This document shows positions 13,536-63,992 of a stretch of 64,000 nt of DNA, in pieces. Each line of letters starts with the position of its first letter. Within the stretch, counting starts at the first letter, position 1. Below the pieces are notes generated by a model, which saw nothing but the letters and a program-made list of their open reading frames with translations, was not told the origin of the DNA and did not search any database. Both the position numbers and the translations under genes were made by a program. Source of the stretch: Chaetoderma sp. LZ-2023a (taxonomy: Eukaryota > Mollusca > Caudofoveata > Chaetodermatida > Chaetodermatidae); contig CM067372.1 of assembly GCA_034401795.1 (NCBI GenBank), forward strand, positions 14,022,940 to 14,086,939, written 5' to 3'.

Positions 13536-14793
13536 AGTGTCAGAGTAGATCCTAACCACAGAAATGTCCCACACTATGTCAGACTAGACCCTTGTAATGT
13601 CCCACACTGTCAGAATAGATCTTAACACACAGCTTCATAAATGTCACACACTATGTCAGACTAGATCCTAACACACAGCTTCGTAAATGTCCCACACTGT
13701 CAGAATAGATCTTAACACACAGCTTCATAAATGTCCCACACTATGTCAGACTAGATCCTAACACACAGCTTCATAAATGTCCCTCGCTATGTCAGACTAG
13801 ATTCTAACACACAGCGTCAGAAATATTCCATACTGTCAGACTAGATCCTAACACGCAGCTTCATAAATATCCCACACTATGTCAGAGTAGATCCTAACAC
13901 ACAGCTTCATAAATGTCCCATACTACATCAGACTAGATCCTAACACACAGATTCATAAATGTCTCTCACTATGTCAGAGTAGATCCTAACACACAGCTTC
14001 ATAAATGTCCCACACTATGTCAGAATAGATCTTAACACACAGCTTCATAAATGTCCCTCGCTATGTCAGACTAGATCCTAACACACAGCTTCAGACATAT
14101 TCCACACCATGTTAGACTAGATCCTAACACGCGACTTCATAAATGTCCCACACTATGTCAGACTAGATCCTAACACACAGCTTCATAAATGTCCCACACT
14201 ATGTCAGACTAGATCCTAACACACAGCTTCATAAATGTCCCACACTATTTCAGACTAGATCCTAACACACAGCTTCAGAAATGTCCCACACTATTTCAGA
14301 CTAGATCCTAACACACAGCTTCGTAAATGTCCCACACTGTCAGAATAGATCTTAACACACAGCTTCATAAATGTCCCTCGCTATGTCACACTAGATTCTA
14401 ACACACAGCGTCAGAAATATTCCATACTGTCAGACTAGATCCTAACACGCAGCTTCATAAATGTCCCACACTATGTCAGAGTAGATCCTAACACACAGCT
14501 TCATAAATGTCCCATACTACATCAGACTAGGTCCTAACACACAGCTTCAGAAATGTCCCACACTATGTCAGACTAGATCCTAACACACAAATTCATAAAT
14601 GTCCCTCACTATGTCAGAGTAGATGCTAACACACAGCTTCATAAATGTCCTACACTATGTCAGACTAGATCCTAACACACAGATTCATAAATGTCCCTCA
14701 CTATTTCAGAGTAGATCCTAACACGCAGCTTCATAAATGTCCCACACTATGTCAGACTAGATCCTAACACACAGCTTCATAAATGTCCCACAC

Positions 14794-34016: not shown

Positions 34017-34366
34017 TCCCACACTATGTCAGACTAGATCCTAACACACAGCTTCAGAAATGTCCCACACTATGTCAGACTAGATCCTAACACACAGCTT
34101 CAGAAATGTCCCACACTATGTCAGACTAGATCCTAACACACAGCTTCATAAATGTCCCACACTATGTCAGACTAGATCCTAACACACAGCTTCAGAAATG
34201 TCCCACACTATGTCAGACTAGATCCTAACACATAGCTTCAGAAATGTCCCACACTATGTCAGACTAGATCCTAACACACAGCTTCAGAAATGTCCCACAC
34301 TATGTCAGACTAGATCCTAACACACAGCTTCAGAAATGTCCCACACTATGTTAGATATTTACTTAC

Positions 34367-34477
34367 ATCTTTTGGATGGGCAATTAGCAGCACCTGTGTA
34401 ATAGCAGATGTCGGGAAGATAGGATTATACACGGGTAGATCCATCGAGGATGGAGGCTGTAACTTCACCTTCATCAT
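34367..34477 (-). CDS. GGA: GGA penultimate exon (central GAE)
   Basis: Minus-strand acceptor TTTCCATACTAG, 37 codons in phase 0, donor GAT/GTAAGT. The peptide contains MMKVKLQPPSSMDLP and, at its end, TSAITQVLLIAHPKD. These are the most conserved GAE strands; KVKLQPPSGTELP and AITQVLLLANP are the usual forms, from memory. The upstream exon ends in ...VPK in phase 0 and the downstream one starts EKI in phase 0. The donor lies about 17 bp from the last satellite monomers, so the array begins essentially at the splice site. Confidence 0.93.
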
Positions 34478-34984
34478 CTAGTATGGAAATACATAGAAAG
34501 CTAGGATTATATACAGGTAGCTTCATAGATGAGGCCAGGTGTATCTTCCTCTTCATAGTGTGAAAATACACAAAGTTAGGATAACAGAACAGCTCATAAA
34601 TAAGTTAAAATGTTTCCAAAACAAAATCAGAAACATTGAATAGAAAATGTCAATTTGCAGATCAAGAGAAGACTATTTTTGATAATTTACCACTGGAATG
34701 CCAGACTCCCAGTGCTGAAATCAGTTTTGGCTGATATGAGTGCTAAACGGTCAACCCCGTTTGCCACAGTCCAGCTATGTATAATCTGATTCAATATATG
34801 ACATGTTGAACAATTAGAAATTGAATTAACATAGAGCTGTTCCTGCCTAATTAATCCAACAGATTCCAGTATAATCAGTTTCAAAATATACAGTTGCTTA
34901 CCAGTACATATGATTACTTGGAAATTGAGATAGATTTCAAGCAAAATTGTAATGCGCTCAGAAACATTGATGATGCATTTGGCA
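34478..34984. other. GGA intron segment with a family-1 MITE fragment
   Basis: 34647-34755 carries ATTTGCAGATCAAGAGAAGA, TTTACCACTGGAATGCCAGA and GTTTTGGCTGATATGAGTG, a rearranged half of family 1. The 101-codon minus frame over 34687-34992 shows no domain. Confidence 0.55.
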
Positions 34985-36124: not shown

Positions 36125-36288
36125 CTTAGGAACCATTGCTTGAAACATGAAGTTTGATATGGGTGCTGTACATGTACTGGTCACAGACACAGCCATCACC
36201 TGCACATCCTCCCGGGGATGATCTTGTCCAAAGTGTAAGACAATCTTTAACTTGTTCTTTTCATAAATACACAGAGCTTCTTCCATTC
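36125..36288 (-). CDS. GGA: GGA exon (start of GAE domain)
   Basis: Acceptor CATACTGTTTCAG/GAATGG, donor CCTAAG/GTGAGA on the minus strand. The exon is 164 bp: two bases completing a Gly codon, then 54 codons ending ...VPK. The peptide includes NKLKIVLHFGQDHPREDVQV and SNFMFQAMVPK, the first GAE strands. From IKP of the upstream exon to the conserved tyrosine there are nine residues, the same as in my recollection of human GGA1, which supports this exact acceptor. The first 27 nt of the exon and ~23 nt of intron before it are the same sequence, with one mismatch, as the unit of the adjoining tandem array. Confidence 0.92.
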
Positions 36289-39200
36289 CTGAAACAGTAT
36301 GAATGAGGAGACATAAATACACAGAGATTCTGCCTTTCCTGAAACAGTATGAATGAGGAGACATAAATACAGAGCTTCTGCCATTCCTGAAACAGTATGA
36401 ATGAGGAGACATAAATACGCAGAGCTTCTGCCATTCCTGAAACAGTATGAATGAGGAGACATAAATACAGAGCTTCTGCCATTCCTGAAACAGTATGAAT
36501 AAGGAGACATAAATACAGAGCTTCTGCCTTTCCTGAAACAGTATGAATGAGGAGACATAAATACAGAGCGTCTGCCATTCCTGAAACAGTATGAATAAGG
36601 AGACATAAATACACAGAGCTTCTGCCATTCCTGAAACAGTATGAATGAGGAGACATAAATACAGAGCTTCTGCCATTCCTGAAACAGTATGAATAAGGAG
36701 ACATAAATACAGAGCTTCTGCCTTTCCTGAAACAGTATGAATGAGGAGACATAAATACACAGAGCTTTACTGCCATTCCTGAAACAGTATAAATGAGGAG
36801 ACATAAATACGCAGTACTTCTGCCATTCCTGAAACAGTATGAATGAGGAGACATAAATACAGAGCTTCTGCCATTCCTGAAACAGTATGAATAAGGAGAC
36901 ATAAATACAGAGCTTCTGCCTTTCCTGAAACAGTATGAATGAGGAGACATAAATACACAGAGCTTTACTGCCTTTCCTGAAACAGTATGAATGAGGAGAC
37001 ATAAATACGCAGAGCTTTACTGCCATTCCTGAAACAGTATGAATGAGGAGACATAAATACACAGAGCTTTACTGCCATTCCTGAAACAGTATAAATGAGG
37101 AGACATAAATACGCAGTACTTCTGCCATTCCTGAAACAGTATGAATGAGGAGACATAAATACAGAGCTTCTGCCATTCCTGAAACAGTATGAATAAGGAG
37201 ACATAAATACAGAGCTTCTGCCTTTCCTGAAACAGTATGAATGAGGAGACATAAATACACAGAGCTTTACTGCCTTTCCTGAAACAGTATGAATGAGGAG
37301 ACATAAATACGCAGAGCTTTACTGCCATTCCTGAAACAGTATGAATGAGGAGACATAAATACGCAGAGCTTCTGCCATTCCTGAAACAGTATGAATGAGG
37401 AGACATAAATATGCAGAGCTTCTGCCATTCCTGAAACAGTATGAATGAGGAAACATAAATACAGAGCTTCTGCCTTTCCTGAAACAGTATGAATGAGGAG
37501 ACATAAATACGCAGAGCTTCTGCCATTCCTGAAACAGTATGAATGAGGAGACATAAATACAGAGCTTCTGCCATTCCTGAAACAGTATGAATGAGGAGAC
37601 ATAAATACACAGAGCTTTACTGCCATTCCTGAAACAGTATGAATGAGGAGACATAAATACGCAGAGCTTCTGCCATTCCTGAAACAGTATGAATGAGACA
37701 TAAATACAGAGCTTCTGCCATTCCTGAAACAGTATGAATAAGGAGACATAAATACAGAGCTTCTGCCTTTCCTGAAACAGTATGAATGAGGAGACATAAA
37801 TACACAGAGCTTTACTGCCTTTCCTGAAACAGTATGAATGAGGAGACATAAATACGCAGAGCTTTACTGCCATTCCTGAAACAGTATGAATGAGGAGACA
37901 TAAATACGCAGAGCTTTACTGACATTCCTGAAACAGTATGAATGAGGAGACATAAATACGCAGAGCTTCTGCCTTTCCTGAAACAGTATGAATGAGGATA
38001 AATAAATACACAGAGCCTCTGCCATTCCTGAAACAGTATGAATGAGGATACATAAATACACAGAGCTTTTGCCTTTCCTGAAACAGTATGAATGAGGAGA
38101 CATAAATACACAGAGCTTTTGCCTTTCCTGAAACAGTATGAATGAGGAGACATAAATACACAGAGCTTCTGCCTTTCCTGAAACAGTATGAATGAGGAGA
38201 CATAAATACACAGAGCTTCTGCCTTTCCTGAAACAGTATGAATGAGGAGACATAAATACACAGAGCTTCTGCCATTCCTGAAACAGTATGAATGAGGAGA
38301 CATAAATACACAGAGCTTTTGCCATTCCTGAAACAGTATGAATGAGGAGACATAAATACACACAACTTCTGCCATTCCTGAAACAGTATGAATGAGGAGA
38401 CATAAATACACAGAGCTTCTGCCTTTCCTGAAACAGTATAAATGAGGAGACATAAATACACAGAGCTTCTGCTATTCCTGAAACAGTATGAATGAGGAGA
38501 CATAAATACACAGAGCTTTTGCCATTCCTGAAACAGTATGAATGAGGAGACATAAATACACAGAACTTCTGCCATTCCTGAAACAGTATGAATGAGGAGA
38601 CATAAATACAAAGCTTCTGCCATTCCTGAAACAGTATGAATGAGGAGACATAAATACGCAGAGCTTCTGCCATTCCTGACAGTATGAATGAGGAGACATA
38701 AATACGCAGAGCTTCTGCCATTCCTGAAACAGTATGAATGAGGAGACATAAATACGCAGAGCTTCTGCCATTCCTGAAACAGTATGAATGAGGAGACATA
38801 AATACACAGAGCTTTTGCCATTCCTGAAACAGTATGAATGAGGAGACATAAATACAGAGCTTCTGCCATTCCTGAAACAGTATGAATGAGGAGACATAAA
38901 TACACAGAGCTTTTGCCATTCCTGAAACAGTATGAATGAGGAGACAAAAATACACAGAGCTTTTCTGCCTTTCCTGAAACAGTATGAATGAGGAGACATA
39001 AATACACAGAGCTTCTGCCATTCCTGAAACAGTATGAATGAGGAGACATAAATACACAGAGCTTTTGCCATTCCTGAAACAGTATGAATGAGGAGACATA
39101 AATACACAGAGCTTCTGCCATTCCTGAAACAGTATGAATGAGGAGACATAAATATGCAGAGCTTCTGCCATTCCTGAAACAGTATGAATGAGGAGACATA

Positions 39201-39651
39201 AATACACAGACCTTCTGCCATTCCTGAAACAGTATGAATGAGGAGACGAAAGCATGCAGAGCTTCTGCCATTCCTGAAACAGTATGAATGAGGAGACAAA
39301 AATACACAGAGCTTCTGCCATTCCTGAAACAGTATGAATGAGGAGACAAAAATACACAGAGCTTCTGCCATTCCTGAAACAGTATGAATGAGGAGACATA
39401 AATACACAGAGCTTCTGCCATTCCTGAAACAATATAAATGAGGAGACATAAACATGCAGAGCTTCTGCCATTCCTGAAACAGTATGAATGAGGAGACATA
39501 AATACACAGAGCTTCTGCCTTTCCTGAAACAGTATAAATGAGGAGACATAAATACGCAGAGCTTCTGCCATTCCTGAAACAGTATGAATGAGGAGACATA
39601 AATACACAGAGCTTCTGCCTTTCCTGAAACGGTATGAATGAGGAGACATAA
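36289..39651. repeat. ~50-bp tandem array made of a GGA intron-exon junction
   Basis: About 68 units, 48-52 bp. On the minus strand each contains CTGTTTCAG/GAATGGCAGAAG (or GGAAAGG) followed by CTCTGTGTATTTATGTCTCC. The first ~27 nt after CAG match the start of the GGA exon at 36288, and the rest matches the polypyrimidine end of the intron. The standard 50-bp unit has no stop codon in any minus frame. This explains minus-strand open frames up to 577 codons. Units with AGTAAAGC introduce stops in the proximal half. A 302-bp (six-unit) sub-period is visible between 36755 and 37320. Confidence 0.95.
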
Positions 39652-40403
39652 AATGATGGACGACAGGAAAAAGTCAGAAATACTGTATTTCCTTACTTAG
39701 AATATGCCACACACGTGATAAAATATGGGTAACCTAAAACTAGCCCAGGTGACTCTTCACAGAATATAGTATTGCTTCAGTTCATCAACAAAATCGCTAC
39801 ATGTTTTAGGGCAATCATACAGGAAAGCTGTTGAATATTTTGAAAATAATTTGGAACACATTGCAATGGCTTCCAGTCAAATCATTTTCAAAATATACAC
39901 CAGAGTATAATAGTTATTATGCATGAGAAAGGTTTCTTGTATCTGGTCAGTAGCTGTGAAACTGTTAATTAGTTTGATTACATGTTGGCTTGATTGTTTT
40001 TGGGTTAGCTGCTTAGACTCAGTGTTATGACAAAGGAAAAATCATTCATGGTGATTTCAACTCGGGTAACCAGCACGGAAATGATCGTTTTGTTCACCTA
40101 AAATTTTATTTTATGTCCTGACTAATCTGTCATAAACGTTTAGGACACAACAATTTAGAATTAATTACAGAGCATATATAGCAGCTTCTTTAAGATTTAC
40201 TAAATAATTTGTTGAACATTTTGAAATTAATTTGACTGGAAGGCCTAGAGCAGCAATATATTCTGGTCAAATTATTTTCAAATTATTTACCAGTTTCCTG
40301 TATGGCTCGACTAAGATGTAAATACTGGTATTGTAGAGTTAATATCATAATATGCACAATATCTGAATATGCAACATCAACATGAGTGTTGTCCTAGACC
40401 GAC
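39652..40403. other. GGA intron with two family-2 elements
   Basis: 39720-39970 is a long family-2 copy (core 39826-39908: CTGTTGAATATTTTGAAAAT facing ATCATTTTCAAAATATACAC) collinear with 3890-4165. 40209-40294 is a second core (GTTGAACATTTTGAAATTAA facing TGGTCAAATTATTTTCAAAT). No coding signal. Confidence 0.65.
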
Positions 40404-40699
40404 CTGGCTTTATGCTGTCTAGCGGTACAAACACATCTGTTAGCGGTGGCACCGGGTGAGCGTGCTTTGGCGTACCAGAGGGTGTCGAGGATGCTGATGA
40501 CGGCTGGTTTGTTGGTGCTCTAGTGGATACATTTGGAGTACCTGTGCTCTCTTGTGAAGACGGTGTGACATTGTTAGATAGTTTTTCTGTTAGCGTCTGT
40601 TCTGTGACATTATTCTGTGATTTGTTTTCCATCTGCGAGGATGAAGAGTCAATGAGCACCTGCTCTGAGAGAGATGATGACGAGGACTTGCCGGGAGAA
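40404..40699 (-). CDS. GGA: GGA exon (hinge, Ser/Thr/Pro-rich)
   Basis: Acceptor TTTTTTCTCACCAG, donor AAGCCAG/GTCGGT on the minus strand; 296 bp (1 + 98 codons + 1). The first base completes a Ser codon with the AG that ends the upstream exon, and the last G completes Gly with GA of the next exon. The peptide is low-complexity Ser/Thr/Pro/Asn-rich, as expected of the unstructured GGA hinge, and ends LTDVFVPLDSIKP. This is the conserved pre-ear motif, usually VPLESIKPS in vertebrates (from memory). The donor GTCGGT is weaker than the others. Confidence 0.88.
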
Positions 40700-41055: not shown

Positions 41056-43095
41056 ATGCAGTGCAAGCGACAATGTGACCATGCTGCTCTCCATATACCA
41101 CCAGCTACAAACCCTGGTCATGTGCCTCCATCTGCTGTTCCATGCTGCTCTCCATACACCACCAGCTACAAACCCTCCATGTGCCGCTATCGGCTGTTCC
41201 ATGCTGCTCTCCATACACCACCAGCAACAAACCCTGATCATGTGCCGCTATCTGCTGTCCCATGCTGCTCTCCATACACCACCATCTACAAACCCTGGTC
41301 ATGTGCCACTATCTGCTGTCCCATGCTGCTCTCCATACACCACCAGCTACAAACCCTGGTCATGTGCCACTATCTGCTGTCCCATGCTGCTCTCCATATA
41401 CCACCAGCTACAAACCCTGATCATGTGCCGCTATCTGCTGTCCCATGCTGCTCTCCATACACCACCAGCTACAAACCCATGTCATGTGCCACTATCTGCT
41501 GCCCCATGCTGCTCTCCATACACCACCAGCTACAAACCCTGATCATGTGCCACTATCTGCTGTCCCATGCTGCTCGCCATACACCACCAGCTACAAACCC
41601 TGGTCATGTGCCACTATCTGCTGTCCCATGCTGCTCTCCATACACCACCAGCTACAAACCCTGATCATGTGCCGCTATCTGCTGTCCCATGCTGCTCTCC
41701 ATACACCACCAGCTACAAACCCATGTCATGTGCCACTATCTGCTGCCCCATGCTGCTCTCCATACACCACCAGCTACAAACCCTGATCATGTGCCGCTAT
41801 CTGCTGTCCCATGCTGCTCGCCATACACCACCAGCTACAAACCCTGGTCATGTGCCACTATCTGCTGTCCCATGCTGCTCTCCATACACCACCAGCTACA
41901 AACCCTGATCATGTGCCGCTATCTGCTGTCCCATGCTGCTCTCCATACACCACCAGCTACAAACCCTCCATGTGCCGCTATCGGCTGTTCCATGCTGCTC
42001 TCCATACACCACCAGCAACAAACCCTGATCATGTGCCGCTATCTGCTGTCCCATGCTGCTCTCCATACACCACCATCTACAAACCCTGGTCATGTGCCAC
42101 TATCTGCTGTCCCATGCTGCTCTCCATACACCACCAGCTACAAACCCTGGTCATGTGCCACTATCTGCTGTCCCATGCTGCTCTCCATACACTACCAGCT
42201 ACAAACCCTGATCATGTGCCGCTATCTGCTGTCCCATGCTGCTCTCCATACACCACCAGCTACAAACCCATGTCATGTGCCACTATCTGCTGCCCCATGC
42301 TGCTCTCCATACACCACCAGCTACAAACCCTGATCATGTGCCACTATCTGCTGTCCCATGCTGCTCGCCATACACCACCAGCTACAAACCCTGGTCATGT
42401 GCCACTATCTGCTGTCCCATGCTGCTCTCCATACACCACCAGCTACAAACCCTGATCATGTGCCGCTATCTGCTGTCCCATGCTGCTCTCCATACACCAC
42501 CAGCTACAAACCCATGTCATGTGCCACTATCTGCTGCCCCATGCTGCTCTCCATACACCACCAGCTACAAATCCTGATCATGTGCCGCTATCTGCTGTCC
42601 CATGCTGCTCGCCATACACCACCAGCTACAAACCCTGGTCATGTGCCACTATCTGCTGTCCCATGCTGCTCTCCATACACCACCAGCTACAAACCCATGT
42701 CATGTGCCACTATCTGCTGCCCCATGCTGCTCTCCATACACCACCAGCTACAAACCCTGATCATGTGCCACTATCTGCTGCCCCATGCTGCTCTCCATAC
42801 ACCACCAGCTACAAACCCTGATCATGTGCCGCTATCTGCTGTCCCATGCTGCTCTTCAAACACCACCAGCTACAAGCCCTGATCATGTGCCGCTAACTGC
42901 TGTCCCATGCTGCTCTCCATACACCACCAGTTACAAACCCTGATCATGTGCCACTATCTGCTGTCCCATGCTGCTCTTCAAACACCACCAGCTACAAGCC
43001 CTGATCATGTGCCGCTAACTGCTGTCCCATGCTGCTCTCCATACACCACCAGTTACAAACCCTGATCATGTGCCGCTATCTGCTGTCCCATAACC
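41056..43095. repeat. 61-bp tandem array in a GGA intron
   Basis: About 33 units of 61 bp with the words CATGCTGCTCTCCATACACC and ACCAGCTACAAACCCTG, then ATGTGCCGCTATCTGCTGTC. Four-unit (244-bp) sub-blocks recur. A segment with CCTCCATGTGCCGCTATCGG occurs at about 41168 and again at about 41960, a ~791-bp duplication. Overlapping plus-strand frames of 113-214 codons are repeat artefacts. Confidence 0.95.
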
Positions 43096-59700: not shown

Positions 59701-60714
59701 TTAATGTTTTAAAATCGACAAGGCGAGAGGGTTAGAGGTGTCACGGAGGTAATGGTCTGTAAAACTTGACTCACAGTGCCACTGAGCCACGGACATAATG
59801 TCATCCACAGGGACCCCACTAAACAGGGCAGTGGATGCCACGACACCGCGGACACTGTGAGCCTTGGCCACATCAACCTGTCTCCCGGTGGCGGATTTGT
59901 GACAAAACTGAATACATTCTACCATCCACCTGGAAATGGTGTCCTTAGACGCCCTGCCATGGGGTTCAATATATGACAACCATAACGCTGACTGGTCGGT
60001 ACGCCACTCCGAAGTACGCTGTTTGTACCGGAGCAGCGCCCGTACGGGGCACCATACTTTAGAATTAGGATCATATCTAGTTAAAGATGGCAAAAAAATA
60101 GGTTGACCTGGATATTTCAATGACTGATTCTTAGCCAAGAAATTAATCCTAGGTAGAAGCTTAAGGCCTTCCCCTGTAACCACAAAACGGTCATCCTCGG
60201 CTGATAAGGCGTGAATCTCACTCCTACGCCTTGCCGAGGCCGCAGCAATTAAAAATACAGTTTTAAGCGTTAACATTTTCATAGAAATGGAACTAAGTGG
60301 TTCAAAAGGCTTATCTCCTAGTACCTGAAGCACCAGGGATAAACTCCAGACTGGAATCAGTGGTGGATTCCTTGGTCTTAGATTGCCCATGCCTTTAATT
60401 AATACATTTAATGTACTTACTTCATCACTCCCCCTATTAGCCAAGCAAGGAATAACAGTCATTAATGCTGATTTGTAACCAGCAATAGAGTTAGGCTTGA
60501 GGCTATGGGCATCATATAGGTGACAGAGGAAATCAGCCACTACCTGAATAGATGAGTCCATTGGATCAATACATCTTTTTGAGCACCACTCTGCAAATCT
60601 GTTGATTTTATAATTATATGCTCTGGAGGTTGACCCCCTCCTGGCTTTGGCCATAAATATGGCCGCTTGCTCAGAAAAGCCCTCCTTAATTCTAGATTCC
60701 TTGACAACATCCAC
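59701..60714 (-). CDS. DIRS-like tyrosine recombinase, element C
   Basis: A 337-codon open frame. Site-specific recombinase of the phage-integrase family, used by DIRS elements in place of a DDE integrase to insert circular DNA. Visible motifs: ASARRRSEIHAL (catalytic Arg, about residue 164), AHSVRG (His286-x-x-Arg289), QWHCESSFTDHYLRD (Trp/His at 312-313, nucleophile Tyr322). The N-terminal half contains the helical DNA-binding region (SRAYNYKINRFAEWC). All catalytic residues are present, so it may be functional. The start is uncertain: the frame begins at a GTG and probably continues upstream, overlapping the RNase H frame by ~175 bp, as is usual in DIRS elements. Confidence 0.9.
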   Translation of the reverse strand: MDVVKESRIKEGFSEQAAIFMAKARRGSTSRAYNYKINRFAEWCSKRCIDPMDSSIQVVADFLCHLYDAHSLKPNSIAGYKSALMTVIPCLANRGSDEVSTLNVLIKGMGNLRPRNPPLIPVWSLSLVLQVLGDKPFEPLSSISMKMLTLKTVFLIAAASARRRSEIHALSAEDDRFVVTGEGLKLLPRINFLAKNQSLKYPGQPIFLPSLTRYDPNSKVWCPVRALLRYKQRTSEWRTDQSALWLSYIEPHGRASKDTISRWMVECIQFCHKSATGRQVDVAKAHSVRGVVASTALFSGVPVDDIMSVAQWHCESSFTDHYLRDTSNPLALSILKH

Positions 60715-61520
60715 GCAGTCAATCGGAACATTGACGGATTGTCGTGAAGGACCTTGCCCTGGAAGATAAGGTCATCCATCAGAGGCAGCGGAACCGGATT
60801 GCAGACCAGAAGGTCCAGCAGATCCGTATACCACGATCGGCTTGGCCAATCCGGGGCGATCAGAAGCACTTGGCACTCCTGCTGCCTGATTTTCTGAAGC
60901 ACCTTTGGAATCAGGATTGCTGGAGGGAATGCGTATGCATACATTCCCGCCCAGCTGATAGCTAACGCATCTGTTGCGAAAGCGCTTGGGTCTGGAATCG
61001 GAGAGACGTACGTCGTCATCTTCGCATTCTTCTTCGTTGCGAACAAATCGATGTTGGGTTTCCCCCAATGGTCGAACAGACGATCCGCTACACATTGATT
61101 TAGTTGCCATTCCGTGGGTAAAACACTCATCCTTCGGCTCAATGAGTCTGCTAGCAGATTTATCCTTCCCGGAATATGAACTGCCTTCAAGGTGATCCCA
61201 TGATCTAGGCACCAACAAAGCAGTTTCCATGTCATCATACAGAGACTGGGCGACTTCGTTCCGCCCTGGCAGTTTATGTAAGTCACTACTGTTGAGTTGT
61301 CTGAACGAATTAGAACAATCTTGCCCTGAACTTTCTGTAAGAAATGTTCCAGGCCCAGGACTACTGCTCTTAGCTCTAGTAGATTGATATGTTCCTTGGA
61401 CTGATCCAGATCACAAAGCCCTGATATTGTGGACTCTTCCAGACAAGCTCCCCACCCCTCCATCGATGCATCTGTATACACAGTCACCTGAGGGTGGGGA
61501 GGGGTTAGCAAAACCCCGGC
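60540..61520 (-). CDS. DIRS-like RNase H and C-terminal region, element C
   Basis: Functional part of a longer open frame (60540-62597). The earlier section is out of frame with the RT and not meaningful. RNase H motifs: VYTDASMEGWGA (Asp376 of the long frame), INLLELRAV (Glu408), IRSDNSTVVTY (Asp433), LLADSLSRR (Asp484). All four acidic residues are present. The C-terminal extension (FDHWGKPNIDLFAT, WPSRSWYTDLLDLL) is the domain seen after RNase H in DIRS RTs. It degrades RNA of the RNA/DNA hybrid. A one-base shift near 61518-61525 separates it from the RT frame. Confidence 0.88.
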   Translation of the reverse strand, partial: AGVLLTPPHPQVTVYTDASMEGWGACLEESTISGLCDLDQSKEHINLLELRAVVLGLEHFLQKVQGKIVLIRSDNSTVVTYINCQGGTKSPSLCMMTWKLLCWCLDHGITLKAVHIPGRINLLADSLSRRMSVLPTEWQLNQCVADRLFDHWGKPNIDLFATKKNAKMTTYVSPIPDPSAFATDALAISWAGMYAYAFPPAILIPKVLQKIRQQECQVLLIAPDWPSRSWYTDLLDLLVCNPVPLPLMDDLIFQGKVLHDNPSMFRLTAWMLSRNLELRRAFLSKRPYLWPKPGGGQPPEHIIIKSTDLQSGAQKDVLIQWTHLFR

Positions 61521-62929
61521 AAGAGATTCTCTGTATTCAACCACCATTGCAGGTGGTGAATCAGAGGCGCCAACACCGATACATTCGAGTCCAGCGAACC
61601 TGAACTCTGGGTCCACTGTGTCATGAGAAACAACTGGATCGGGCGCCTGCGCAAGGCGGCCTGCGGAATGACTGGTTCCAATGAAACCATCAACCCCAGC
61701 ATTCTCAAGTAAACCCGTGCCAGGACATGACGACTGTCGCACACCGACTGTATTACTGAGATGAGTCTTTGAACCCTCTCCTGAGTTGGATAAACATATC
61801 CCGACTCGAGATCGAAGAACATGCCCAGGTAAACAAACTTCTGGGATGGAGTTAGCTCTGATTTTTGGAAATTGACTATCCAGCCCAAGTCCGTGAGAGT
61901 TTTCAAAACAATCTCCAGATTGGCCGATAACCTTTCCCGGGTGTGTGCTTTCAACAGCCAGTCGTCTATGTACGTGTGGACTGCTATGCTTCTCCTGCGG
62001 AGGTATGCAGTGATCGCGAGAACCACACGGGTGAAGACCCGAGGAGCCGTGGAAATCCCGATGGGTAATACCCTGAATTTCCACTGTCTGCCCTGGAATG
62101 CAAATCTCAGGAAGCGACGGAAACTCCTCTCTATGGGAATGTGGAAATAAGCATCCTTCAAATCTATTGACGCTGTCCACATTCCTTGCTCTAACCCCGC
62201 CAACACCGAGCGCACAGTCTCCATCTTGAAACTGGGCGTCTCTATGAACTTGTTCAATGGCTTGAGGTTGAGAATCGGCCTCCACCCTCCGGTGTTTTTC
62301 GTTACTAAGAACAGGGTTGAATAGAAGCCCGGGCACCTCTGCGCCGGCTGAATGGCTTCCTTTTGTATGAGGGAATTTATTTCCTCCTCTATACACAACC
62401 TTTGATCTGGATCCCTTGGAATCGGGGTCCAGATCGGCACGAGAGACAGTCTCGATGGCGGGCCTGTTATCCAATCGGGACGATACCCGACTGAAAGCCA
62501 TCGCAAGACTAAACGGTCCTGAGTCAACCGCTTCCACTCTGTCAAGTGGCCGACCAACCGGCCGCCCACCGGTCCACCTAGGGAGAGAGGTGGACATAAG
62601 GAGTGAGAGAGTGGCACTGTCTTCTCGGCCTGAAACACCGGAGTGGTTCCCACTACGGTAACCGGGCCATCAGGCCCGATTACCGCGACCAGATCCCCGC
62701 GCGCCCCGCCCAGCACCGCGCGCACCACGGTGCGTGGGTTGCTGCCTGGCTGGCTGCGCCTGGGGAGCCTGCGCCCCCCTCGCTGCTGGCCGAATCGCAC
62801 GCGGCCTAGGCCGGCGCTGCGATGGTGTCTGGCCTCTGACCTGGCCAGCGCCACCTCGAGCCTGCAGGGGACGATACGCAGGGGGTGCTGCGCGAACGCG
62901 CTCCCGCCGGAGCACCTCAAACTGCTCAC
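61505..62929 (-). CDS. DIRS-like reverse transcriptase, element C
   Basis: A 474-codon frame. Residues before about 80 overlap the gag-like frame and are probably not translated in this frame. RT begins around GGRLVGHLTEWKRLTQ. Motifs: EEEINSLIQKEAIQPA, GGWRPILNLKPLNKFI, SIDLKDAYFHIPI (first catalytic Asp, ~256), VLPIGISTAPRVFT, and TYIDDWLL with YIDD at residues 320-323. Then FVYLGMFFDLESG and LRMLGLMVSLEPVIP of the connection. It ends at TAA just where RNase H should continue (NTENLLPGFC, stop). The catalytic core is intact. Confidence 0.9.
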   Translation of the reverse strand: MSSLRCSGGSAFAQHPLRIVPCRLEVALARSEARHHRSAGLGRVRFGQQRGGRRLPRRSQPGSNPRTVVRAVLGGARGDLVAVIGPDGPVTVVGTTPVFQAEKTVPLSHSLCPPLSLGGPVGGRLVGHLTEWKRLTQDRLVLRWLSVGYRPDWITGPPSRLSLVPIWTPIPRDPDQRLCIEEEINSLIQKEAIQPAQRCPGFYSTLFLVTKNTGGWRPILNLKPLNKFIETPSFKMETVRSVLAGLEQGMWTASIDLKDAYFHIPIERSFRRFLRFAFQGRQWKFRVLPIGISTAPRVFTRVVLAITAYLRRRSIAVHTYIDDWLLKAHTRERLSANLEIVLKTLTDLGWIVNFQKSELTPSQKFVYLGMFFDLESGYVYPTQERVQRLISVIQSVCDSRHVLARVYLRMLGLMVSLEPVIPQAALRRRPIQLFLMTQWTQSSGSLDSNVSVLAPLIHHLQWWLNTENLLPGFC

Positions 62930-63992
62930 GCAGCGCCCTCTGGTTGTTGACCAGAGTCACCGTCTCCTGGAGGTGCCTACATCCCTCACCTCCAAAGAGA
63001 CCAGGACCTGTCATAGGCGTTCGCAGTAGCCTATTATACAGGTCCTGGGACGGGCACAGATTGTCAAGGGCAAACGTGCGCCTCGCCCGGACACTCCTGG
63101 TCACCGCCCGCGTCAAACAGTCCAGAGCCAGGTTGATACCATCCTGGATGGCTCTCTGGACTGTTACCGGGCTTGGCTGACGTGAAGCGGATGCTGTTAC
63201 CACCCCCTGTAACAGCTGGGAGACGTGGGACAGAGCAGCAATCGAAGCTCTCCCACTCTCCTCCGCATCACGTAGCGCGGTATTCGCTGAACGCAACGCG
63301 TTCGAGCACAGGACACCCGTGTCAGAACGGGAACCTGGCCGCGCATCTTCGCCCAAAGCCGCGCGATCATCCACGCTAGGCTTAGGCACCACACCGTACC
63401 GCTGGTAATCCAGGGGCACGATGCGGCAACGTCTAGCCACCTCGCGAGGGGCCTTCGCGAGACGCCCATTCGTCTTAATGGACGTCTCCGCCGCCTCGAA
63501 CATGTCCACGACATGCTCAGCCAGCGGCAGAGATGGCATAGCGGTGGCAGTCGGCCTACCAGCTAACCACGGCCTATGGTCACGCTGGATTGCCGACTGC
63601 TCCACGGGCAGATCTGGTCGAACGCTTACCAGCCATTGGCAAGCGTCCGACCAATCCTCCTCCGTGGCTAACTGCGAGCGCTCTACTAGACGAGGGCCTT
63701 CGTCTTCCTCCTGAGCGCAGGCAGTTGAACTCGACGGCGGATATGCTGATACCCCTGGCAAGCCAGGGAAAGCATGCGGGCCCGAAAGAACAGGCATGCT
63801 AAACTCCCTGGCTTGACCAGGAGCAGGCGCCGTGGTAGAGCGCGGGGCAGACACCGCCACACCACGGCCCTGGCCAGCACCAGCGATACTCTCGGCAAGC
63901 CGAGGTATGCGGTAACCGTGGCCATCAGCACCACCCAGGGTCACCTTCTGGACCGTGAATTCTACTCCTGCGTGAGTAGAACCATGGAACAC
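62670..63992 (-). CDS. DIRS-like gag-type protein, element C
   Basis: A 440-codon frame, possibly extending past the right edge. No zinc knuckle. The centre has EEDWSDACQWLVSVRPDLPV and LPLAEHVVDMFEAAETSIK, shared with element A, and a helical stretch (ALREQFEVLRRERVRA). The C-terminus is Arg/Gly/Gln-rich (GARGAGRGARGSGRGNRA), likely RNA-binding. It sits 5' of the RT in a different, overlapping frame, the normal position of the first DIRS ORF. This segment is markedly GC-richer than the rest of the window. The start residue at 63992 is a convenience, not a supported initiation site. Confidence 0.75.
   Translation of the reverse strand: MFHGSTHAGVEFTVQKVTLGGADGHGYRIPRLAESIAGAGQGRGVAVSAPRSTTAPAPGQAREFSMPVLSGPHAFPGLPGVSAYPPSSSTACAQEEDEGPRLVERSQLATEEDWSDACQWLVSVRPDLPVEQSAIQRDHRPWLAGRPTATAMPSLPLAEHVVDMFEAAETSIKTNGRLAKAPREVARRCRIVPLDYQRYGVVPKPSVDDRAALGEDARPGSRSDTGVLCSNALRSANTALRDAEESGRASIAALSHVSQLLQGVVTASASRQPSPVTVQRAIQDGINLALDCLTRAVTRSVRARRTFALDNLCPSQDLYNRLLRTPMTGPGLFGGEGCRHLQETVTLVNNQRALREQFEVLRRERVRAAPPAYRPLQARGGAGQVRGQTPSQRRPRPRAIRPAARGAQAPQAQPARQQPTHRGARGAGRGARGSGRGNRA

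Follow-up and report, generated by a model that had tools for sequence, protein, structure and literature searches.

Which acceptor would a spliceosome choose when the end of an intron and the start of the following exon have been copied dozens of times in front of the authentic site? This question is raised by a gene of the mollusk Chaetoderma sp. LZ-2023a, analyzed here within a stretch of 64,000 nucleotides (the window; contig CM067372.1, positions 14,022,940 to 14,086,939 of the forward strand).

An amplified intron-exon junction in a GGA gene

The 3′ end of a GGA gene lies on the minus strand of the window, where four exons, A to D, were placed by sequence and protein match (Table 1). The joined A-B-C-D protein matches the structure of human GGA1 (1na8; E = 7e-36, query residues 79 to 218) and Pfam family PF02883 (E = 4.6e-22) and thus contains a gamma-adaptin-ear-like C-terminal (GAE) domain. 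The alignment with GGA1 passes through the A/B junction with no gap (SIKP/GMEEAL versus SIKP/SNILPV), and therefore the junction of 40404 with 36288 is the one that yields the normal protein. The upstream VHS and GAT domains may lie beyond the window; neither family was found in 20 selected minus-strand open reading frames (ORFs) between 43.6 and 57.8 kb or in 8 further ORFs, and a VHS-GAT fragment used as a query gave a best match no better than E = 1.2. In searches bearing on the host, a protein search with one candidate found no relative, and Rfam gave no match at its gathering score.

Table 1. Positions of the GGA exons, the junction array, and associated features in the window
Feature	Position	Strand	Details	Basis
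GGA exon A, hinge end	40404..40699	minus	Ends ...PLTDVFVPLDSIKP (...VPLDSIKP); donor CAG/GTCGGT at 40403	Protein match
GGA exon B, functional GAE exon	36125..36288	minus	164 nt; MEEALCIYEKNKLKIVLHF...VPK	Protein match
Exon B splice sites			Acceptor TACTGTTTCAG/GAATGG; donor AAG/GTGAGA	
GGA exon C, next GAE exon	34367..34477	minus	MMKVKLQPPSS...HPKD	Protein match
GGA exon D, last GAE exon with stop codon	9969..10061	minus	24.3 kb downstream of exon C	Protein match
Tandem array	36262..39652	minus	67 junction copies plus the real one; units of 45 to 52 bp	TRF, acceptor positions
TTTATG, exon-side duplication edge	36262..36267	minus	Within exon B	Sequence
TTTATG, intron-side duplication edge	39647..39652	minus		Sequence
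Only array acceptors leaving the GGA frame open	36630..36726	minus	36630, 36678, 36726	Frame analysis
Decayed second copy of exon C acceptor boundary	34498..34582	minus	72% over 92 aligned nt	

The array sits in the intron between exons A and B, upstream of the functional exon B acceptor, and was read from one haplotype of assembled sequence. TRF, run on the window, reported it with a period of 50, 68.1 copies, and 93% matches, and 68 acceptors of the form [CT]AG/GAA[TA] are found on the minus strand from 39623 to 36288, in agreement with the approximately 68 copies of a preliminary description of this locus. The consensus unit joins 23 nt of intron end (GAATGGCAGAAGCTCTGTGTATTTATG) to 27 nt of exon start (TCTCCTCATTCATACTGTTTCAG) and thus spans the exon-intron boundary, which bears out the earlier statement that the junction itself was amplified. 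Successive acceptors are spaced by 50 bp (39 cases), 48 bp (16 cases), 52 bp (11 cases), or 45 bp (1 case); because no gap exceeds 60 bp, every unit has an acceptor, and the AG is intact in 68/68. A search of exon B against the window returned 49 matches (best E, 3.6e-7), which excludes a chance origin.

The copies are less uniform than had been described. Exon position +4 is T in 48/67 copies and A in 19/67, and +5 and +6 are each altered once, so that GAATGG, previously said to be present in every unit, holds only for a majority of them. At +7, C is present in 67/67 copies and A solely in the real exon at 36288; this is the one mismatch that had been noted against the first 27 nt of exon B, a count that is correct for the consensus, but a single ungapped mismatch is found in just 5/67 individual copies. 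The consensus unit is indeed free of stops in the three minus-strand frames, but 10/11 of the 52-bp units carry CAGTAAAG, which contains TAA. Stop-free minus-strand stretches reach 610 aa, and the exon frame, reported as open upstream to ∼36769, was found open up to 36766. In total, 32 distinct types can be told apart among the 67 units, and runs of unit types recur identically in the exon-proximal half.

The array is real, and it is a large minisatellite of the mirage kind that covers an acceptor-side boundary. In the available text of PMC3087553, the mirages of amphioxus are minisatellite-like tandem duplications of exon/intron boundaries, with splice signals in many, though not all, copies, which could act as cryptic sites. 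The GGA array has the same structural features, namely, a boundary-spanning unit, copies of the splice signals, and an intact authentic boundary and coding sequence.

Strength of the copied acceptors and predicted outcome of their use

Locally, the copies equal the real acceptor. With weight matrices in place of a trained model, the real site scores 7.37 and the copies 4.51 to 7.99. Weak unit acceptors, named in the preliminary description as evidence that would count against its reading, are not what is seen, as 61/67 score at least as high as the real site. Identity to the real acceptor extends from −25 to +3 in 49/67 copies and from −25 to +6 in 32/67 but from −40 to +6 in 0/67. By the same matrices, the acceptors of GGA exons A, C, and D reach 8.7, 3.9, and 11.7, respectively; a score of 7.37 is reached by 8/1,541 AGs outside the array in the three introns, the real acceptors of B and D among them, and by 0/145 other AGs within the array. 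The branch-point-like motifs TTTAT, CTCAT, and TTCAT stand 26, 16, and 12 nt upstream, alike in the 3 acceptors inspected of the 68. A reading in which several unit acceptors are used, inserting a repeat-encoded peptide between hinge and GAE domain or shifting the frame, gains from this local strength and from the lower variability of the splice half of the units (see below).

The predicted outcome of such use argues against it. The 67 array acceptors are spread over the three phases (23, 22, and 22), and only three of them leave the GGA frame open, adding 114, 130, and 146 residues, respectively. The remaining 64/67 lead to a stop, which lies within the insert in 55 cases and within exon B in 9, and the six copies nearest to exon B all cause a frameshift that ends in a stop. 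The shortest in-frame insert (122 residues including flanks) matches no Pfam family at the cutoff. In addition, regular splicing was reported as undisturbed in published mirages, as far as the available parts of PMC3087553 and PMC3902484 extend. Because so few choices keep the frame and the nearest six copies destroy it, a graded peptide device, as originally proposed for this array, is unlikely, and misuse of the copies would yield noise or a rheostat instead. We regard splicing to multiple acceptors as a very improbable account of the array.

Each of the 64 premature stops is separated from the last junction by more than 50 nt on its upstream side. This is compatible with a splicing rheostat, in which minor, length-dependent use of upstream acceptors would lead to a stop and to degradation, such that allele length would tune GGA output; the length instability of mirages, which is published and also somatic (PMC3087553, available text), points the same way. 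The mirages covered in the available parts of PMC3087553 and PMC3902484 are nonetheless said to leave splicing undisturbed, and we consider a rheostat unlikely here.

Two further uses of the units were considered and rejected. Against recursive or serial splicing within the array, CAG is followed by GAA in place of GT, and the donors of the array are weak by the weight matrix; the same absence of donors speaks against the units as microexons. No usable 5′ splice site was found in the array units, whose 250 GTs reach top scores of only 5.2 and 4.5, at one site each (weight matrix). The donor of exon B scores 10.5 by this matrix and is the best of the three GGA donors (A, 6.7; C, 7.6), a difference from the array maximum that supports exon definition at 36288, which we infer to operate as follows. 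Exon B is 164 nt long and has a good donor, which would favor its nearest acceptor, 36288, and the upstream acceptors would be disfavored because just 27 nt of exon sequence, with no good donor, follow each of them. Rare use of an upstream copy would then nearly always create a premature stop and expose the mRNA to decay.

From the sequence, it is thus most likely that splicing ignores the array apart from its last copy. Growth of the array would be silent as long as the spliceosome pairs 40404 with 36288, since all new copies lie on the intron side and leave the last junction and the exon intact. Taken together, the array is probably a mirage-type minisatellite that expanded from a TTTATG-bounded junction duplication and grew silently, with 36288 as the presumed splice choice. 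Several observations sit uneasily with this explanation. The local quality of the copies matches that of the real site, and the splice half of each unit is poor in substitutions, which would not be expected if unused copies simply decayed neutrally. The cryptic sites and the intron gain suggested for mirages (PMC3087553) and a PGBD5 gene model with an exon made of repeat copies (see below) also speak against it.

Origin, growth, and substitution pattern

The motif TTTATG opens the leftmost copy, on the intron side, and closes the exon-derived part of the unit. This 6-nt direct repeat bounds the array and makes slippage or a microhomology-mediated duplication its likely origin. A single junction lying between two TTTATG motifs 50 nt apart would have been duplicated in this way, and the duplicated 50-bp segment would then have expanded to 67 extra copies by unequal exchange or slippage. 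The recurring unit types and the +7 base indicate homogenization inside the array with the edge unit excluded: the A confined to the real exon places that unit outside the homogenized block. Identical pairs of units six apart make up a share of 0.29 in the exon-proximal half versus 0.07 in the far half, and the blocks close to the exon are thus probably the younger copies; a shift scan of the near half for a block period gave nothing above the cutoff. The recurrence of identical runs of unit types in that half could also signal an assembly artifact that affects the copy number or a portion of the array, and one mirage does appear aberrantly assembled in a draft genome (PMC3087553, available text). 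Against this stand the 32 distinct types among the 67 units and the trace of the same process at another exon of the gene, and we hold an artifact to be exceedingly improbable.

That trace, a second and decayed boundary duplication at exon C, also favors the explanation by silent mirage growth. The acceptor boundary of exon C was duplicated once (34416 to 34507 versus 34498 to 34582; E = 2.4e-7), with an alignment score of 59 versus a maximum of 30 in 500 shuffles. A short direct repeat, ATCCTANCTT, bounds the duplication at all three edges, and a 5-nt deletion has removed the AG of the decayed copy. No BLAST match elsewhere in the window was obtained with exons A and D and their flanks.

The other arrays of the window were considered as further mirages and rejected: in BLAST searches with exon B alone and with the other three exons and their flanks, only the acceptor boundaries of B and C were duplicated, and among 15 arrays in the window, the exon B array is the 1 that spans a boundary of exons A to D. 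The intron between exons C and D (24 kb) holds, at 13596 to 34355, a 46-bp minisatellite in several similar blocks that start ∼2.94 to 2.99 kb apart from 16353 onward; a scan for a single common period of these 2.9-kb blocks gave nothing above the cutoff, and the last block (34017 to 34355) ends 12 nt short of the exon C donor and does not span it. A 61-bp minisatellite of 33 copies (41079 to 43091), whose plus-strand open frames reach 222 aa, lies in the intron preceding exon A. A dispersed repeat, at most ∼60 bp long, occurs at 34640 to 34700 and in 12 other places (2.3 to 10.4 kb and 35.5 to 35.7 kb), in both orientations and 74 to 94% identical. Overlapping minus-strand ORFs at 59701 to 62956 match a reverse transcriptase (PF00078, E = 4.4e-23), with RNase H and phage-integrase SAM-like matches below the cutoffs; this element resembles a DIRS-type retrotransposon.

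Distinct substitutions among the 67 units are distributed unevenly: the 27 exon-like sites have 19 of them and the 23 splice-side sites 5 (P = 0.0099 by a binomial test and 0.006 by permutation of sites), in a comparison that was conceived after viewing the alignment and in which the units are not independent. The bias persisted when events were moved only among same-base sites (P = 0.003) and with two CpG columns removed (P = 0.006). Every one of the five changes on the splice side affects a C, and four are C-to-T transitions. When the array was scanned for its least variable block, that block fell at the splice signal (P = 0.0076). A strong reading is weakened by score-based tests, which gave only 0.04 and 0.06, and by the absence of lost AGs being unremarkable by itself (P = 0.37). 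A similar bias was seen in 0/5 control arrays of the window with units of 61, 46, 46, 54, and 22 bp (0.998, 0.60, 0.53, 0.82, and 0.61, respectively), the two 46-bp arrays belonging to one family. The bias tests cover substitutions alone. Insertions and deletions occur on both sides: on the exon side, 11 units have gained 2 nt and 16 have lost 2 nt, and on the splice side, two units have one deletion each.

The deficit of substitutions in the splice half is a suggestive lead, for which constraint, growth from the functional end, context-dependent mutation, and chance are candidate explanations. If new units are born beside the functional acceptor, such terminal growth could by itself generate the bias, which should then fade away from the exon. 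Against this prediction, the exon-like and splice-side counts are 15 versus 3 in the far half and 8 versus 3 in the near half, the latter having no significance alone (P = 0.17), and these numbers are small. Under constraint, the 67 acceptors would be kept working through being bound or used, whether they serve as decoys, as a splicing timer, or as a rheostat that depends on length, and the mirage would have become a functional multi-acceptor element; we judge this distinctly unlikely.

Relation to known splice site arrays

Competing acceptors that lie close together are known from NAGNAG tandem acceptors. The GGA copies differ in that they are 45 to 52 nt apart and each unit repeats the pyrimidine-rich stretch. 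The closest parallels are the amphioxus mirages of the globins BflGb6 and BflGb9, Adh3, TnC, and PGBD5, which, as described in the available parts of PMC3087553 and PMC3902484, share with the GGA array boundary repeats, copies of splice signals, and a retained authentic boundary. The BflGb6 mirage is likewise on the acceptor side (PMC3087553, in part). Its units measure 150 to 160 bp in 3 or 6 copies, those of Adh3 10 to 72 bp, and those of PGBD5 60 and 108 bp in 2 to 7 copies, compared with 50 bp and 68 copies in the GGA array (mirage values from the same partial sources). Adh3 data and globin RT-PCR suggest regular splicing, including that of the acceptor-side mirage, and an origin of introns from mirages has been proposed (PMC3087553, available text). 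According to the available text of PMC3902484, no aberrant mRNAs arise from the Adh and TnC mirages, and in one gene model of lancelet PGBD5, copies of the repeat are annotated as an exon that would contribute 57 additional residues, for which no EST or mRNA support exists.

Many near-alike splice sites at an exon edge also occur in intron 7 of human F7, a variable array of 37-bp repeats in which, according to the available part of PMC6627357, only the most upstream, exon-adjacent donor is normally used, a choice explained by oriented scanning. (The available part of PMC3778950 holds nothing on the F7 repeats.) The F7 sites are donors and the GGA sites acceptors, and the exon-adjacent site is accordingly the first in the transcript in F7 but the last in GGA; 5′-to-3′ oriented scanning of the F7 type would favor the wrong end of the GGA array. 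If the exon-adjacent site is used in both genes, then scanning direction cannot be the common rule, whereas exon definition can.

Boundary duplication itself is thus of an already known kind, the mirage, and what is new is the size of the array, together with the suggestive substitution bias. No title among the literature matches listed concerned a boundary array in a GGA gene, which does not prove its absence. The assembled copy number is far above the 2 to 7 stated for mirages in the available sources. Arrays of this type are also a trap for annotation, as tandem repeats create spurious spliced alignments (PMC10632439, in part). The array is a mutational record of the fate of copied splice sites, and because a single natural gene here presents 68 near-identical acceptors within 3.3 kb, it is a test of models of splice site choice: 5′-to-3′ scanning, or a rule by which the first site transcribed is the first used, predicts 39623, and exon definition predicts 36288.
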